A stretch of DNA of 64,000 nt, from contig NZ_FNCF01000001.1 of the NCBI RefSeq assembly GCF_900100695.1, positions 464,060 to 528,059 on the forward strand. Reading direction: 5' to 3'. Under the pieces are notes generated by a model, which was given only the letters and a program-made list of their open reading frames with translations, had not been told where the DNA came from and ran no database searches. Shown here one piece after another: positions 9,208 through 63,286 of this stretch. The translations under genes and the position numbers were made by a program. This DNA is from Klenkia brasiliensis. GTDB taxonomy: Bacteria; Actinomycetota; Actinomycetes; Mycobacteriales; Geodermatophilaceae. Numbering within the stretch: position 1 is the stretch's first letter; the number at the start of each line of letters is the position of its first letter.

Positions 9208-9831
9208 TCAGACCACCGAGGCGAAGACGACCACGTTCTCCTCGCTGGCACCGGCCGACTCGTCGTAGGTGCCGCCGCAGGTGACCAGCGCGACGTCGGC
9301 GCCCTCGGGGTGGCCGTTGAGCGCGTCGGACAGGTCCGACGTCGACTTGTCCAGGCCCGTCAGCGGCGCCTCGATGACCTGCAGCTGCAGCTGGCTGCCG
9401 TCGGCCGAGGTGAGGACGACGGGGTCGCCCACCTGCAGCTCGCCGAGCCGGTCGAAGACGCCGGGCGCGTCACCGGGGACGTCGTGGCCGAGCACCACCG
9501 CCATCTGGCCCGAGCCCGGCTCGGGGCCGTCGGACCACCACGACGTCGACGCCATGTCCTCGGGCACGCCGTACCCGGCGACCTGCTGGCCGGTGAAGGG
9601 GTTGGTGTAGTCGACCGTGCCGCGCTGCTCCACCGGCGCCTGCACGCCGATGGAGGGCACGCTCAGCGCCGCCGGGACCAGGGGCACCTCGGCCGCCGAC
9701 GTGGCCGGCACCGCCGGGGTGGTGTCGCGGCCGTAGCCGTACCACCAGCCGCCGGCCAGCAGGGTGACCAGGACCAGCAGGACGACCAGGCCGGACGACG
9801 ACCCGGCGTCGCGGTCAGCCGGCGACGCCAC
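9208..9831 (-). CDS. Class F-like sortase
   Basis: A membrane-anchored transpeptidase: one helix near the N-terminus (GLVVLLVLVTLLAGGWWYGYG), an extracytoplasmic Ala/Pro stalk, then a sortase barrel. The putative catalytic His is in VVLGHDVPGDAPGVFDRLG and the Cys in ALVTCGGTYD, both class F signatures. The expected arginine just before the last strand is not obvious: the sequence reads SEENVVVFA where family members as I recall them tend to have a basic residue. Start is uncertain: GTG at 9831 gives 207 residues and a 17-base overlap with the upstream gene; GTG at 9855 gives 215. The gene pairs with the secreted protein upstream. Confidence 0.82.
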   Translation of the reverse strand: MASPADRDAGSSSGLVVLLVLVTLLAGGWWYGYGRDTTPAVPATSAAEVPLVPAALSVPSIGVQAPVEQRGTVDYTNPFTGQQVAGYGVPEDMASTSWWSDGPEPGSGQMAVVLGHDVPGDAPGVFDRLGELQVGDPVVLTSADGSQLQLQVIEAPLTGLDKSTSDLSDALNGHPEGADVALVTCGGTYDESAGASEENVVVFASVV

Positions 9832-56720: not shown

Positions 56721-58520
<1,800 letters not shown>

Positions 58521-58616: not shown

Positions 58617-58625
58617 CCGATAGGC
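58617..58625 (+). promoter_or_regulatory. Shared upstream motif CCGATAGGC, copy 1
   Basis: CCGATAGGC ends six bases before the GTG of the first LAXTG gene. The same nine bases occur at the same distance before the paralogue at 60785, so it is likely a common -10-type promoter element. Confidence 0.55.
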
Positions 58626-58630
58626 GCGCC

Positions 58631-60067
58631 GTGACCTCCCGCCTGCTCGCCCGCCGCCCCCTCCAGCTGGGCGGCCTGCTCCTCGCCGCCACGACCCTCG
58701 GCATGGCCACCGCACCCGCCGCCCTGGCCGAGGAGACCCCGGCGCCGCAGACCGACCCGTCGGCCACGACCTCGGCCCCGGAGGTGCTGCCCCCGGCGGC
58801 CACGACCACCGCGACCGGCACCGACGGCCCCGCGAGCACCACCGACGGCACGGCGGCCACCACCACGGCGCCGTCGTCGGCCACCTCCACGTCCGCGGCA
58901 CCGTCGACGGCGGCCGCCGCCACGGAGACCGGGCCCGACGTGGTGGCCGGCACGACCACCCCGACCGGCGCGCACTTCGGCACCGGCAAGCTGAACCTCT
59001 ACCTGGACACCTCCGAGGACGAGCTGCCCGACGGGGTCGACCTCGACGTCACCGGTGCGCAGCTGGAGCTGCGCTTCAGCCAGGTGGACGGAGCCCCCTC
59101 GACCGCCCACGGCATCTGCGACGTGGACGCCGGCCTCGTCAACTTCCCCTTCGGGAGTTCGTGCGAGTTCCAGCCGGGCAGCACGGTCCCGACCGAGAAC
59201 TACTACGGGCTCGCACAGGTCCCGTCGCTGCCCGCGGACTCCGTCTTCACGCTCACGCTCGTGACCCCGCCCTCCTCGGGCCAGCTGCTGGACGCACCCA
59301 TGTCCATCCAGGGCTACACCGACAGCAGTCCCGCCCCCGTCGGCGACTCCAGCGACCTGGGTCTGCCGGTCCTGCACGGCTACCGCACCCTCGGCGTGTC
59401 CGTGGTGGACGGTGCCCCGGCCGGCACCCAGGTGCAGCTGTGCCCGGAGGTGGCCGGCGCCTGCGCGACCGGGTCGACCCCGGTCGTCGCGACCACGGAC
59501 GCCGCCGGGCGGGCCACGTTCGACGGCCGCTACCTGCCCGGTGACTACCTGGTGACCCGCGGCGGCACCAGCACCGCGTTCGCCGTGCCCGCCGCCACCA
59601 GCACCACCGAGCGGGACGCCGTGCTGCGCGCCACCGTCGGCGTCCCCGTCGCGCCGCCCACCACCGCCCCCCGCACCACCGGGACCGCCACCGCCGCGGC
59701 CCCCACGGTGGCCGCCGGCCGTCAGCAGACGATCACCGCCGGCGGGTTCACGCCCGGCGAGACCGCGCGGGGCACGCTGTACTCGACCCCCGTCGACCTC
59801 GGCACCGCGGTGGCCGACGCCCAGGGCATGGCCACGTTCACCTTCACCCTGCCCGCCGGGTTTGAGCCCGGCACCCACACCGTCACCGCGGTGGGGCTGA
59901 CCAGCGGCGCGACCAGCAGCGTGACCTTCACCGTGACGTCCGGGAGCACGCCCGCGCTGGCGCAGACCGGTGTCGAGGTCGCCCCGCTGCTCGGCCTGGG
60001 CGCCCTGGCCCTGGGCGGCGGCGCGGCGCTCACCGTCGCCGGCACCCGGCGGCGGCGCACCGCGTGA
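58631..60067 (+). CDS. LAXTG-anchored surface protein, module copy 1
   Basis: 478 residues from GTG 58631. Signal peptide (RRPLQLGGLLLAATTLGMAT, cleavage after ALA). A Thr/Ala/Ser-rich spacer (about 35-105), then a domain starting FGTGKLNLYLDTSEDELPDG with a cysteine pair (GICDVD, SSCEF) and ending LVTPPSSGQLLDAP. Two further Ig/prealbumin-like repeats follow (GAPAGTQVQLCPEVAGACAT; GFTPGETARGTLYSTPVDLG). C-terminal sorting signal: LAQTG, a helix (LLGLGALALGGGAALTVAG) and RRRR. LAXTG is the class E sortase motif. Function unknown; SpaA-like stalk or adhesin is plausible. Stop overlaps the next gene. Confidence 0.85.
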   Translation: MTSRLLARRPLQLGGLLLAATTLGMATAPAALAEETPAPQTDPSATTSAPEVLPPAATTTATGTDGPASTTDGTAATTTAPSSATSTSAAPSTAAAATETGPDVVAGTTTPTGAHFGTGKLNLYLDTSEDELPDGVDLDVTGAQLELRFSQVDGAPSTAHGICDVDAGLVNFPFGSSCEFQPGSTVPTENYYGLAQVPSLPADSVFTLTLVTPPSSGQLLDAPMSIQGYTDSSPAPVGDSSDLGLPVLHGYRTLGVSVVDGAPAGTQVQLCPEVAGACATGSTPVVATTDAAGRATFDGRYLPGDYLVTRGGTSTAFAVPAATSTTERDAVLRATVGVPVAPPTTAPRTTGTATAAAPTVAAGRQQTITAGGFTPGETARGTLYSTPVDLGTAVADAQGMATFTFTLPAGFEPGTHTVTAVGLTSGATSSVTFTVTSGSTPALAQTGVEVAPLLGLGALALGGGAALTVAGTRRRRTA

Positions 60068-60741
60068 GCTCCCCGGTCGGGACGGCGGTCTGGTACGCCC
60101 GGCACGCCGTCCCGGCGGGCGGGGTCGTGCTGGTGTCCGTCGCCGGCCCCGGCTTCCCCGACGGCACCGTCGTCGACCTGCCCGGCCCGCCGGCCCACCC
60201 GGCGGGCTGGCTGGCGCAGGCGCACGTGCGCGACGCCGGCCACGTACCGGTGACGGTGCAGGTCTCGCCCGAGCTCGCCGCGGGCTCCCCGCACCTGTGG
60301 TTCGTGCTCGGTCCCGCCGGGGACGGGGACGCCGTCGACCTGGTCGCGTTCTCCACCGCCGCGCTGGCCGACGGCCGGGTGGTGGGCGCCGGGACCCTGG
60401 CCACCGCGGGCGTGACCTGGGCCGACCAGGTCGCCGCGGTGCGCTGGTCGCCGTCGACCGGCCTGGTGTCGCAGGTGTACGTCTCCCCGCGGGCCCGGCG
60501 ACGGCGGATCGGCACCCGCGTCGTGGTGACGGCCGACGCCGTCCGGTCCGCGCTCGGGTGGGCACCCCTGGTCAGCGACGGCCGGGTCACCGACCTGGGC
60601 GATGCCTGGTTGTCGGCGCAGTCGCCGGCGTGGCGGGCCCGGGTCCCCGCGGGCGGCGAGCGGCCGCCGCCGATGACGCCCGCGGACGAGGCCGTCGGCG
60701 TCCCGGCCCGCCAGCTCGTCCCCGACCCGCCCCGGTCCTGA
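60064..60741 (+). CDS. GNAT-like protein, module copy 1
   Basis: 225 residues; GTG overlaps the LAQTG protein's stop (GTGA). No signal peptide or helix, so cytosolic. The C-terminal half has QVYVSPRARRRRIGTRVVVT and ALGWAPLVSDGRVTDLGDAWL, which looks like the acetyl-CoA-binding part of a GNAT acetyltransferase. The N-terminal half (VWYARHAV, FPDGTVVDLPGPPAHPAGW, DLVAFSTAALADGR) is specific to this family and its paralogue. A substrate in co-translated surface-protein synthesis is unknown. Confidence 0.75.
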   Translation: MSSPVGTAVWYARHAVPAGGVVLVSVAGPGFPDGTVVDLPGPPAHPAGWLAQAHVRDAGHVPVTVQVSPELAAGSPHLWFVLGPAGDGDAVDLVAFSTAALADGRVVGAGTLATAGVTWADQVAAVRWSPSTGLVSQVYVSPRARRRRIGTRVVVTADAVRSALGWAPLVSDGRVTDLGDAWLSAQSPAWRARVPAGGERPPPMTPADEAVGVPARQLVPDPPRS

Positions 60742-60770
60742 CCCGGTGGTCACGACCCGGCCCGGGCCCG

Positions 60771-60779
60771 CCGATAGGC
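60771..60779 (+). promoter_or_regulatory. Shared upstream motif CCGATAGGC, copy 2
   Basis: Identical to the motif at 58617-58625 and again six bases before a GTG that begins GTGACCTCCCG in both genes. Confidence 0.55.
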
Positions 60780-60784
60780 CGGGC

Positions 60785-61708
60785 GTGACCTCCCGCGCCC
60801 GCCTGTCCCGCCGTCCGCTCCAGGTCGGCGGGCTGCTGCTCGCCACCGTCGCCCTGGGCACGGTGACCGCGCCGGCCGCCTCGGCGATGGTCGACCCGTC
60901 CGCCCCGGCCGACCAGACCCCCGAGCAGGCCCCCGCGGTCGCGCCGCAGGTGCTCACCAACGGCCCGGCCTCCTACCTGGGCACCCCCGACCAGCCGGTC
61001 GACTTCGGCCTGGGCAAGCTGCAACTCTCGGTCGCCCCCGAGCCCGGCGTCGACGCGCCCGAGGACGAGGACATGTCCGGCGCCGTCGTGGAGGTCGCCT
61101 TCCCGGACGACCTCGACGACGAGGGCACGCCCGTCACGATCTCCTGCACCACCGACGCGGCCGGGGAGTGCTCGTTCCCCGAGGGCAGCGACTACGTCGA
61201 CCCCGACACCGGCCTGCTGCGCGTGTGGGGGAACCAGGCCTTCACCATCACGCAGGTGCAGCCGCCGTCGTCGGGCCTGTTCGCCCTGCCGGCGGGCGAC
61301 GACGCGGTGGTCCACGGCATCGGCACGTGGCCGCGGTTCGAGCTGCCCGTCCTGGAGGACACCGGCCCGGACCAGGTGCTGGACGTCGCACCGACCGTGA
61401 CCCCGGCCGCCGACGGGATGGACGCCGAGGGCGCCACCGGGTCGGTCGTGCTCTTCGACCCGCTGGCCCAGGTCGCCGGCGACGTGCCCGTCGACCCGAC
61501 GGTCGCGCCGAGTGCCCCCGCACCGGACTCGACCGCGCCGGCCGCACCCGTCGTCCCCGTGGAGCCCGCGGCCGCGACCCCGGCCACCGCCGCGCCGACC
61601 CTGGCGACCACCGGGTTCGACGCCGTCCCGGCCGCGCTCGTCGGCGGCGGGCTGCTGGTCGCCGGCGCCGGTGCAGTCGTCGTCGGGCGTCGCCGGGCGG
61701 TCCGCTGA
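60785..61708 (+). CDS. LAXTG-anchored surface protein, module copy 2
   Basis: 307 residues from GTG 60785. Signal peptide RRPLQVGGLLLATVALGTVT with cleavage after ASA. One N-terminal domain, starting FGLGKLQLSVAPEPG and ending VQPPSSGLFALPAGDD, with two close cysteines (ISCTT, GECSF) equivalent to those in copy 1. Then an Ala/Pro stalk (about 215-275) and sorting signal LATTG, helix (LVGGGLLVAGAGAVVVG) and RRR. Shorter than copy 1, lacking its later Ig-like repeats. Its TGA overlaps CTG of the following gene. Confidence 0.85.
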   Translation: MTSRARLSRRPLQVGGLLLATVALGTVTAPAASAMVDPSAPADQTPEQAPAVAPQVLTNGPASYLGTPDQPVDFGLGKLQLSVAPEPGVDAPEDEDMSGAVVEVAFPDDLDDEGTPVTISCTTDAAGECSFPEGSDYVDPDTGLLRVWGNQAFTITQVQPPSSGLFALPAGDDAVVHGIGTWPRFELPVLEDTGPDQVLDVAPTVTPAADGMDAEGATGSVVLFDPLAQVAGDVPVDPTVAPSAPAPDSTAPAAPVVPVEPAAATPATAAPTLATTGFDAVPAALVGGGLLVAGAGAVVVGRRRAVR

Positions 61709-62346
61709 CCTCGCTCTGGTACGCCCGGCACGCCGTCGGCACCGGGCACGTCCTGGTCGGCACGGCGTCCGACGCCTTCCCCGACGGCGCCGTCGTCGAC
61801 CTCCCCGGCCCCCCGACCCGCTCGGCGGGGTGGCAGGTCGAGGCGCACGTGCCGCAGCCGGGGCGGGCGCCGTCCCGGGTGCTGGTCTCCCCCGACGTCG
61901 CGCCGCGGGCCCCGCACCTGTGGTGCGTGCTGCGCGCCGCCGGGCCCGGCGCCCCCGGCGGTGACGTGGACCTGGTCGCCTTCTCCACCGCGCACCTGGA
62001 CGACGGCGCGGTGGTCGCCGCGGACGCGCTGTCCTGGCTCGACGTCGGCTGGGCCAACCAGGTCGGCGCGGTGCGCTGGACGGCGGCCACCGGGGTGGTC
62101 GGCCAGGTGTTCGTCGCCCCGGAGCACCGCCGGCTGCGGGTGGCCGCCAAGCTGCTGATGGTGGCGGCCGGGGTCCGGGTGGCCCTCGGCTGGGCGTCGC
62201 TGCGCAGCGACGGCCGGCTCACCGACCTCGGCGACAGCTGGCTCACCGCGGCCCCGGAGTGGTGGCGGCACCGGGTGCCGGGGCGGGCGGCCCACCTGCC
62301 CCCGATGGACCGCCCACCCACCGACGACCTCAGGCCAGGCGGGTGA
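61705..62346 (+). CDS. GNAT-like protein, module copy 2 (apparent CTG start)
   Basis: 213 residues if the CTG that overlaps the LATTG gene stop (CTGA) is the start. Aligns with copy 1 from the first residues: SLWYARHAV against AVWYARHAV, then FPDGAVVDLPGPP, DLVAFSTAHLDDG, QVFVAPEHRRLRVAAKLLMV and ALGWASLRSDGRLTDLGDSW. There is no ATG, GTG or TTG in frame near the conserved start, and upstream in-frame sequence is merely a shadow of the surface-protein gene. The 3' end overlaps the convergent transglutaminase gene by 17 bases. Confidence 0.78.
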   Translation: MTSLWYARHAVGTGHVLVGTASDAFPDGAVVDLPGPPTRSAGWQVEAHVPQPGRAPSRVLVSPDVAPRAPHLWCVLRAAGPGAPGGDVDLVAFSTAHLDDGAVVAADALSWLDVGWANQVGAVRWTAATGVVGQVFVAPEHRRLRVAAKLLMVAAGVRVALGWASLRSDGRLTDLGDSWLTAAPEWWRHRVPGRAAHLPPMDRPPTDDLRPGG

Positions 62347-63286
62347 CCTCGACGACGACCGAGTGCCCCTCGCTGCGCGGGCCGGAGAAGATGCCCTTCA
62401 ACGGCGGCACGTCCTTGTAGTCGCGGCCGCGGCCCAGCGTCACGTGCCGGGTGGCAACCTCGACGACGTTGGTCGGGTCGTAGCCGGTCCAGGAGCCGTC
62501 CCACCACTCCACCCACGCGTGGCTCTCGCCCTTGACCGGCTCGCCGATCGCCGCGCCCGGGCGGGGATGCAGGTAGCCCGAGACGTAGCGGGCCGGGATG
62601 CCCAGCGCCCGCAGCAGGCCGACGGACACGTGCGCCATGTCCTGGCAGACCCCGCGGCCCGAGGTCCAGGCCTGCATCGCCGTGGTCTTCACGTGCGTGG
62701 ACCCCGACAGGTACTGCATGTGGTCGTGCACGAACCGGCAGACCCGGTACCCGGCCTCGCGCGGGTCGGCGTCGCCGACGGCCTCGCGCACCGCCCGGAC
62801 GACCGGGGGGTCCATGGCGGTGAGCCGGGTGGGCGCCAGCATCTCGCCGAACCGGTCGAGGACGTCGGGGGTGGCGAGCTCGGCCCAGTCGACGACGGGG
62901 GCCTGCTCGGGCTCCGGGCCGGCCTCGACCACCGAGGTGGCCACCAGGGACAGCTCGCGGTGCGGGCCGTGCAGGTCGAACGCGGTGACCGTGGAGCCCC
63001 AGTAGTCGCGGTAGGCCTGCATCGTCGCGGCCGGCTCCACCTCGACGCGGGAGCGCAGCGTGGTCTGGCGGGTCGAGTTCTCCGGGGTCATCCGGGCCTC
63101 GTTGTAGGAGCTGCGCACCGGGCCGGCGTAGGAGAACTTCGTCCGGTGCACGACCTGCAGCCGCCACCGCTCGACACCGGCCGGGGCCGAGGCGGGCTGC
63201 GCGGTCTGCGGCACCGCGGCGCGGGGCAGCGGACCGGTGACCGGCTCGGGCACGCGCTGGGACTGCGACTGGGTCATCGCGCTCAC
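62330..63286 (-). CDS. Transglutaminase-like protein
   Basis: 318 residues; GTG overlaps the alpha-E gene stop (GTGA), with an ATG three codons in. After a polar leader it has a bacterial transglutaminase-like N domain (VVHRTKFSYAGPVRSSYNEA) and a transglutaminase core: Cys in SGRGVCQDMAHV, His in GESHAWVEWW, Asp in TGYDPTN. Usually found with alpha-E and circularly permuted ATP-grasp proteins in a peptide-synthesis or cleavage cluster of unknown product. Probably a cysteine protease or amidase. Confidence 0.9.
   Translation of the reverse strand: MSAMTQSQSQRVPEPVTGPLPRAAVPQTAQPASAPAGVERWRLQVVHRTKFSYAGPVRSSYNEARMTPENSTRQTTLRSRVEVEPAATMQAYRDYWGSTVTAFDLHGPHRELSLVATSVVEAGPEPEQAPVVDWAELATPDVLDRFGEMLAPTRLTAMDPPVVRAVREAVGDADPREAGYRVCRFVHDHMQYLSGSTHVKTTAMQAWTSGRGVCQDMAHVSVGLLRALGIPARYVSGYLHPRPGAAIGEPVKGESHAWVEWWDGSWTGYDPTNVVEVATRHVTLGRGRDYKDVPPLKGIFSGPRSEGHSVVVEVTRLA

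Follow-up and report, generated by a model that had tools for sequence, protein, structure and literature searches.

The window analysed here is a stretch of 64 000 nucleotides (nt) of Klenkia brasiliensis DNA (contig NZ_FNCF01000001.1, positions 464 060 to 528 059). At 58631-62346, on the + strand, it carries two two-gene units in tandem, each of which couples a gene for an LAXTG surface protein (S) to a gene for a GNAT-like protein (G). S and G constitute one real, conserved two-gene module, and G may act on a conserved lysine of S before S is exported. The features of the two units (lengths in amino acids, aa) are:

58631..60067, + strand: S1, a surface protein with a signal peptide, 478 aa, one lysine, LAQTG, a membrane stretch and an RRRR tail
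58988..58990, + strand: the only lysine codon of S1, within FGTGK
59957..59971, + strand: the S1 sorting motif LAQTG, read directly
60064..60741, + strand: G1, a soluble-looking GNAT-like protein, 225 aa, GTG start
60785..61708, + strand: S2, a surface protein with a signal peptide, 307 aa (start inferred), one lysine, LATTG
61016..61018, + strand: the only lysine codon of S2, within FGLGK
61601..61615, + strand: the S2 sorting motif LATTG, read directly
61705..62346, + strand: G2, a soluble-looking GNAT-like protein, 213 aa, probable CTG start

In both units the start of G overlaps the stop of S by 4 bases (GTGA for G1; CTGA, at 61705-61708, for the probable start of G2). The S2 start is the GTG picked by its signal peptide; the mechanical open reading frame (ORF) begins at 60746. 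For G2, there is no ATG, GTG or TTG start near the overlap and the in-frame CTG is the sole candidate. CTG is a rare start codon that G2 seems to use, and the CTGA arrangement is kept at the same site in three relatives (L040, L041 and L053), giving four genomes in total. The translations of S1 and S2, read directly, share a layout of signal peptide, low-complexity part, cysteine-pair domain, LAXTG, membrane stretch and arginine tail, whilst G1 and G2 are 56% identical across their matched part. An earlier note on this DNA had described a duplicated module with LAXTG surface proteins; both descriptions are borne out, except that the genome holds three units rather than two. The third lies ~78 kb outside the window, with its G at G000:C3 605867-606472 (− strand) and an LATTG gene in front of it.

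To see how far the pairing extends, we counted G and its upstream neighbour in related genomes (rows L006 and L007, which lie on the same contigs as L056 and L041, were left out of all counts). G is present in 36 of 96 genomes of the family, and a tree of 45 G rows, two of them from the window, divides into three groups of 15: clades A, B and C. An LAXTG gene lies directly upstream in all rows of clade A, and the gene directly upstream in all 15 rows of clade B encodes a protein that has a membrane stretch and a basic tail; coupled G therefore directly follows an S-type gene in 30 of 30 family rows. The 15 G rows of clade C (support 100/100) are solitary. Further out we sampled larger groups evenly, and across other families, orders and classes G directly follows an S-type gene in 18 of 23 rows, one of the remaining five being cut by a contig end. 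In the order sample G was found in 28 of 298 genomes, seven of them outside the family; the eight rows from outside comprise six with an S-type gene upstream, one cut and one without. The sorting motifs of these order rows are LASTG (two) and LAATG (one), and L090, L092 and L093 have no exact motif. The class sample gave G in 7 of 394 genomes including the window's, with an LPXTG/LAXTG tail upstream in six of the eight rows of the six others, and the phylum sample gave G in 6 of 396 genomes including the window's, with an LPXTG-type tail (one of them VPVTG) upstream in six of the seven rows of the five others. The module is thus widespread yet sparse, and the rare adjacency that would have told against the earlier note is clearly ruled out. 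In two of the outside rows (L111, L194), G is preceded by a small protein without an anchor (about 170-180 aa) that ends in LYRTK or LFRSK, possibly a second type of partner.

The two genes are also tightly spaced. Among 42 pairs measured (30 from the family and 12 from outside), 28 have overlapping start and stop codons, 10 have gaps of ≤20 nt and 4 have a CTG in a 4-nt overlap; in all 18 outside pairs the S stop lies ≤110 nt from the start of the matched part of G. Because the frame relation is not constant among pairs (overlaps of 4, 8, 14 and 20, as well as gaps), a programmed frameshift fusing S and G was ruled out. Presence and absence follow the same pattern: using an S profile, S was found in 25 of 25 family genomes with coupled G vs 3 of 71 others (G028, G048 and G093), i.e. 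in 28 of the 96, and in 0 of 11 genomes that have only a clade C G. It is very improbable that S and G are chance neighbours carried by synteny. Clade A in the family does sit between two conserved genes, as synteny would have it, but S and G are also paired at a second locus, which in 9 of 15 clade B rows follows an acyl-coenzyme A (acyl-CoA) dehydrogenase gene, and the spread of the pairing to other families, orders and classes contradicts such an origin. The pairing is undescribed in the titles and abstract beginnings of the open-access matches listed by our literature search, a coverage that excludes most subscription journals and preprints.

The earlier note had read the pair as a wall-anchored protein co-translated with a possible acetyltransferase, and as stated the part on wall anchoring did not hold. 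Exact LATTG occurs in 3 of the 15 clade B S proteins; L066 has LETTG and the others have forms such as LTTVSS and LQTESS. Since 12 of 15 clade B rows thus keep the pairing and the membrane tail with no exact LPXTG/LAXTG motif, wall anchoring is not what ties S to G and is not essential to their pairing: the pair can be maintained despite decay of the sorting motif. In several clade B proteins (e.g. L044, L046, L049, L050) the motif appears to have decayed to an LxTxS-like form, as though a wall protein had turned into a membrane protein.

What S proteins do share is a lysine. They diverge fast, with a mean column identity of 22% in an alignment of 28 domains in which one glycine, the lysine and one cysteine are invariant. 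The rows of this alignment had been preselected by the pattern [FY]G..?K, and the motif was therefore checked by independent routes. Amongst 51 G-adjacent S proteins with a complete N-terminus (29 from the first family set, 28 of them exact; 4 added from the family; and 18 from outside, 17 exact), [FY]GxxK is present in 49 and the other two have one extra residue (FGPFPK in L046, FGDFLK in L193). All 51 therefore have lysine at the motif, and no other basic residue occurs there. This count leaves out L048, L091, L169 and L171, which are cut by contig ends, and L095 and L111, which have no tailed S. The outside proteins were found via G alone. In a second check, a profile stripped of the motif (its first nine columns removed) placed 36 of 46 G-adjacent S proteins; directly before the placed region, 35 had the exact motif and the other had FGPFPK.

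The motif lysine is often nearly alone. In 21 of 49 S proteins, the stretch that starts 60 residues ahead of the motif and runs to the C-terminus holds no further lysine, and S1, S2 and the third S have one lysine each vs 7.4, 4.5 and 7.5 expected, where the yardstick was 14 ORFs chosen by composition with S2 among them. As a test by itself this depletion is suggestive only.

We also examined S proteins that lack a neighbouring G. In an enlarged set S was found in 34 of 112 family genomes; G was searched for in the original 96 and in 6 of the 16 added ones. The exact motif is absent from all five family S proteins without G, with arginine in place of lysine in three:

G028: LGSVR
G048: VGAVR
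G093: LGSVR
G699: VGSTK
G700, second S: no motif

The other S of G700 has FGWGK and a neighbouring G. G028, G048, G093 and G699 gave only weak matches to short parts of the G profile (best E 9e-6). Four of the five group as a single clade (99/97) within the S proteins of clade B; the fifth lies near, with weak support. Fisher's test of motif against G gives p 3e-5 on rows that are not independent. In a class-wide S search, 11 genomes had weaker matches that start after the motif (model position 10 or later) and were left out of the counts.

One explanation for an isolated lysine is that it is a cross-linking residue, either the acceptor of a pilin-type sortase or part of an intramolecular isopeptide bond, with G capping or protecting it or being unrelated. 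The SpaA prealbumin-like fold is known for isopeptide bonds and some S proteins match this family: 1 of 28 domains at E 0.0014, and L094 and L108 (two of nine proteins) over the cut-off elsewhere in the protein, with none in S1. The sorting signal at the other end of S would also suit such a role. (Matches of the S domain to PDB sequences were mostly weak and immunoglobulin-type among the best 60 of 108, best E 0.01, and were not used.) However, the motif persists in clade B despite the decayed sorting motif and is absent in family S proteins without G. In sortase-assembled pilins a class C sortase polymerises on a lysine, but the window's genome has five sortase matches, one of class E and four nearest class F (two of the four over the class F cut-off); none of the five passes the class C cut-off. 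We regard cross-linking as improbable.

The class E sortase (L001, 253.3 bits vs a cut-off of 160) agrees with the earlier note's expectation that such a gene be present. Class E sortases prefer LAXTG (PMC5148588). S resembles the LAXTG proteins of class E sortases in its signal peptide, LAXTG, membrane stretch and basic tail, and differs from other LAXTG proteins in its partner gene G, its conserved [FY]GxxK and the loss of the exact sorting motif from most of clade B. LPXTG-type tails are scarce in this 4.45 Mb genome, with 15 matches over the cut-off, a count that is too low for LAXTG because the model detects S2 and misses S1 and the third S. Against so few tails, an S-type gene in front of coupled G in every family row is more than chance would give. 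One class F-like sortase gene lies in the window itself, at 9214-9666 (− strand), under the class F cut-off (85.8 vs 166).

By profile, G appears to fall in the GNAT superfamily. The best Pfam matches of G1 and G2 are GNAT families, both under their cut-offs (G1, 20.1 vs 20.7 bits; G2, 16.3 vs 27). In an alignment of 14 G members, 11 matched PF00583 and 10 matched PF13508 (E up to 0.01), and 6 of 10 distant relatives exceed a curated Pfam GNAT cut-off (L088, L092, L100, L107, L108, L110); L111 equals one as printed (20.7), and L094, L112 and L113 are under it. Curated profiles thus place the relatives, but not the window copies, over the threshold. A profile search against PDB sequences gave 30 weak matches, best E 0.012, named as N-acetyltransferases or mycothiol synthase apart from two hypothetical proteins, whilst NCBIfam gave no match for G1 or G2. 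The GNAT motif A region of G aligns. G differs from typical members of the superfamily in ~100 N-terminal residues without a Pfam match, in a CoA motif that is eroded in many rows and in its conserved partner gene. The earlier note's proposal of a GNAT-like partner is therefore supported by the Pfam and PDB profiles; the structural prediction is a separate matter, taken up below.

Coupled and solitary G proteins differ at defined positions. We compared 61 rows, 46 coupled-type (of which L091, L095, L100 and L111 have no tailed S in view) and 15 solitary. The coupled-type rows share Q122 (45/46), A125 (45/46), Q137 (46/46), Y/F139 (46/46) and M204 (44/46), a signature found in 0 of 15 solitary rows; R146 is also shared (44 to 46 of 46). 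At the same positions, in the order Q122, A125, Q137, Y/F139, R146 and M204, the solitary rows have Arg; Glu or Gln; Asp, Thr or Ala; mostly Thr; Gly or Arg; and never Met. Such a signature is what would be expected if its positions serve the partner. A PPMTP-like C-terminus is common in coupled G across orders (Met in 44/46 coupled, 0/15 solitary). Clade C itself, whose solitary G proteins keep the CoA-motif glycine and have no S, stands at the ABC-F locus (below) in other genera, and one genome, G023, has a solitary-type and a coupled G in tandem. Clade C looks as though it had been freed from its partner and had taken on a new function; the tree itself is unrooted, and we infer loss of the partner because the pairing is also found outside the family.

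Many GNATs act on small molecules, and G might accordingly act on a small molecule or wall precursor in the S pathway, the lysine being structural and the link between the genes one of co-expression only. The top PDB sequence match of G, an aminoglycoside acetyltransferase (E 0.012, not significant), points the same way. Such an activity would, however, explain neither why the S lineage lacking G also lacks the motif nor the coupled-G signature that solitary relatives do not have. We consider it unlikely, to much the same degree as cross-linking.

We instead favour, at about an even chance, G as a dedicated cytosolic GNAT-fold transferase that acts on the [FY]GxxK lysine of S before export. 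S and G would be made at the same place and time through translational coupling; whilst S is still cytosolic, G would bind its [FY]GxxK segment and transfer an acetyl, other acyl or aminoacyl group to the motif lysine. The modified S would then be exported and anchored in the membrane or wall, the LAXTG/LPXTG versions being joined to the wall by a sortase (presumably class E here). The pairing, its spread, the gene overlaps, the conserved lysine, the lack of the motif in one lineage that has no G and the coupled-G signature are observed; an action of G on S, its catalytic nature, its site and the group transferred are inferences. Of the two roles raised by the earlier note, modification has become the best reading, since the conserved lysine gives it a concrete target, whilst we found no evidence bearing on signalling.

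Several observations weigh against a lysine transferase. An AlphaFold2 model of G1 has a mean predicted local distance difference test (pLDDT) of 47 from a shallow alignment of five sequences, and Foldseek with this model gave no match at E < 0.001, with GNATs only among the weak ones. The motif-stripped S profile misses 10 of 46 rows, including S1. Three of the 21 lysine-poor S proteins (L047, L066, L107) carry lysines further upstream, and proteins of such low complexity would to some extent be expected to have few lysines anyway. Four outside G rows (L095, L100, L111, L194) have no tailed S upstream. G699 has no G and yet keeps the lysine, and outside the family the draft genome G421 (91% complete) carries YGTQK in an S for which no G was found. 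As the family S proteins without G amount to one clade of four plus one row, the correlated absence of motif and G may reflect one or two events. Lastly, the CoA motif of G (R/Q-x-x-G-x-G/A) is eroded in many coupled rows: the first glycine of RxxGxG/A is kept in 4/15 clade A, 15/15 clade B, 5/16 outside and 15/15 solitary rows, i.e. in 24 of 46 coupled rows; the motif ends in Gly or Ala in 45 of the 46, and G1 and G2 both have Arg at the first glycine. No acyl-carrying residue stands out either, because in the 46 coupled rows every His and Cys column stays below 70% and every Ser column below 85%.

The state of the CoA motif and of these columns would suit a non-catalytic G. As a GNAT-fold escort, G would hold the [FY]GxxK region in the cytosol, delaying folding or guiding export, and the lysine would be a binding contact. 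The glycine is eroded in 11/15 clade A and 11/16 outside rows, no obvious acyl-carrying residue is seen, and the tight S-G gene coupling is of a kind often seen for chaperone-client pairs. Yet all of clade B and 5 of 16 outside rows retain the glycine. A Pfam GNAT cut-off is passed by 6 of 10 distant members, and lysine stands at the motif in every one of the 51 G-adjacent S proteins (49 exact, 2 variants), with no other basic residue in its place. This is the main rival to the transferase, although we think it rather unlikely.

The nearest known systems bear on what a transferase G might do. ApxIC has structural homology to GNATs without the elements that contact CoA and HlyC uses acyl-acyl carrier protein (PMC8339906); CdiC appends a fatty acid to one lysine of CdiA (PMC8510554). 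RtxC/HlyC and CdiC resemble the proposed G in being dedicated transferases encoded beside an exported partner and acting on one or two specific lysines. They differ in their substrates, which are toxins or CdiA of Gram-negative bacteria, whereas S belongs to the sortase-type or tail-anchored surface proteins. Neither sequence matches nor His columns place G in the RtxC family: RtxC is absent from the Pfam matches of G1 and G2 (E up to 5) and of 22 other G proteins (E up to 0.01), and the 46 coupled rows have no His column of at least 70% to correspond to the conserved RtxC-type catalytic His. In a Gram-positive bacterium, the Asp2 acetyltransferase of the accessory Sec system acts on serine-rich repeat adhesins in coordination with export (PMC5578698). 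It is like the proposed G in the dedicated acetylation of a surface protein tied to export. It differs in belonging to the export machine and in modifying sugars carried by the adhesin, whereas G is a short GNAT-type protein with S as its partner. A bolder version of the transferase reading, which we put forward tentatively and think less probable than its plainer form, would make the module a phylum-wide actinobacterial counterpart of RtxC/CdiC: a GNAT-fold transferase, often no longer CoA-dependent, that marks one lysine before export, perhaps with a fatty acyl or aminoacyl rather than an acetyl group, many S proteins having lost most other lysines.

If the transferase reading is true, this would be a site-specific lysine modification system for actinobacterial surface proteins, with a target residue, a candidate enzyme and natural lineages without it already named, and would make it worthwhile to search sortase substrates for lysine marks added before export. 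Twin-arginine export was also considered as a common trait of S, and the loose pattern occurs in 12 of 37 script-found signal peptides, so that it is not general.

The conserved genes on either side of the units in the window are:

56721..58520, − strand: divergent neighbour with two ABC (ATP-binding cassette) ATPase domains, which we take to be of the ABC-F type; it marks the locus in 14/15 clade A and 15/15 clade C rows
62330..63286, − strand: convergent transglutaminase-like neighbour; it marks the locus in 13/15 clade A and 5/15 clade C rows

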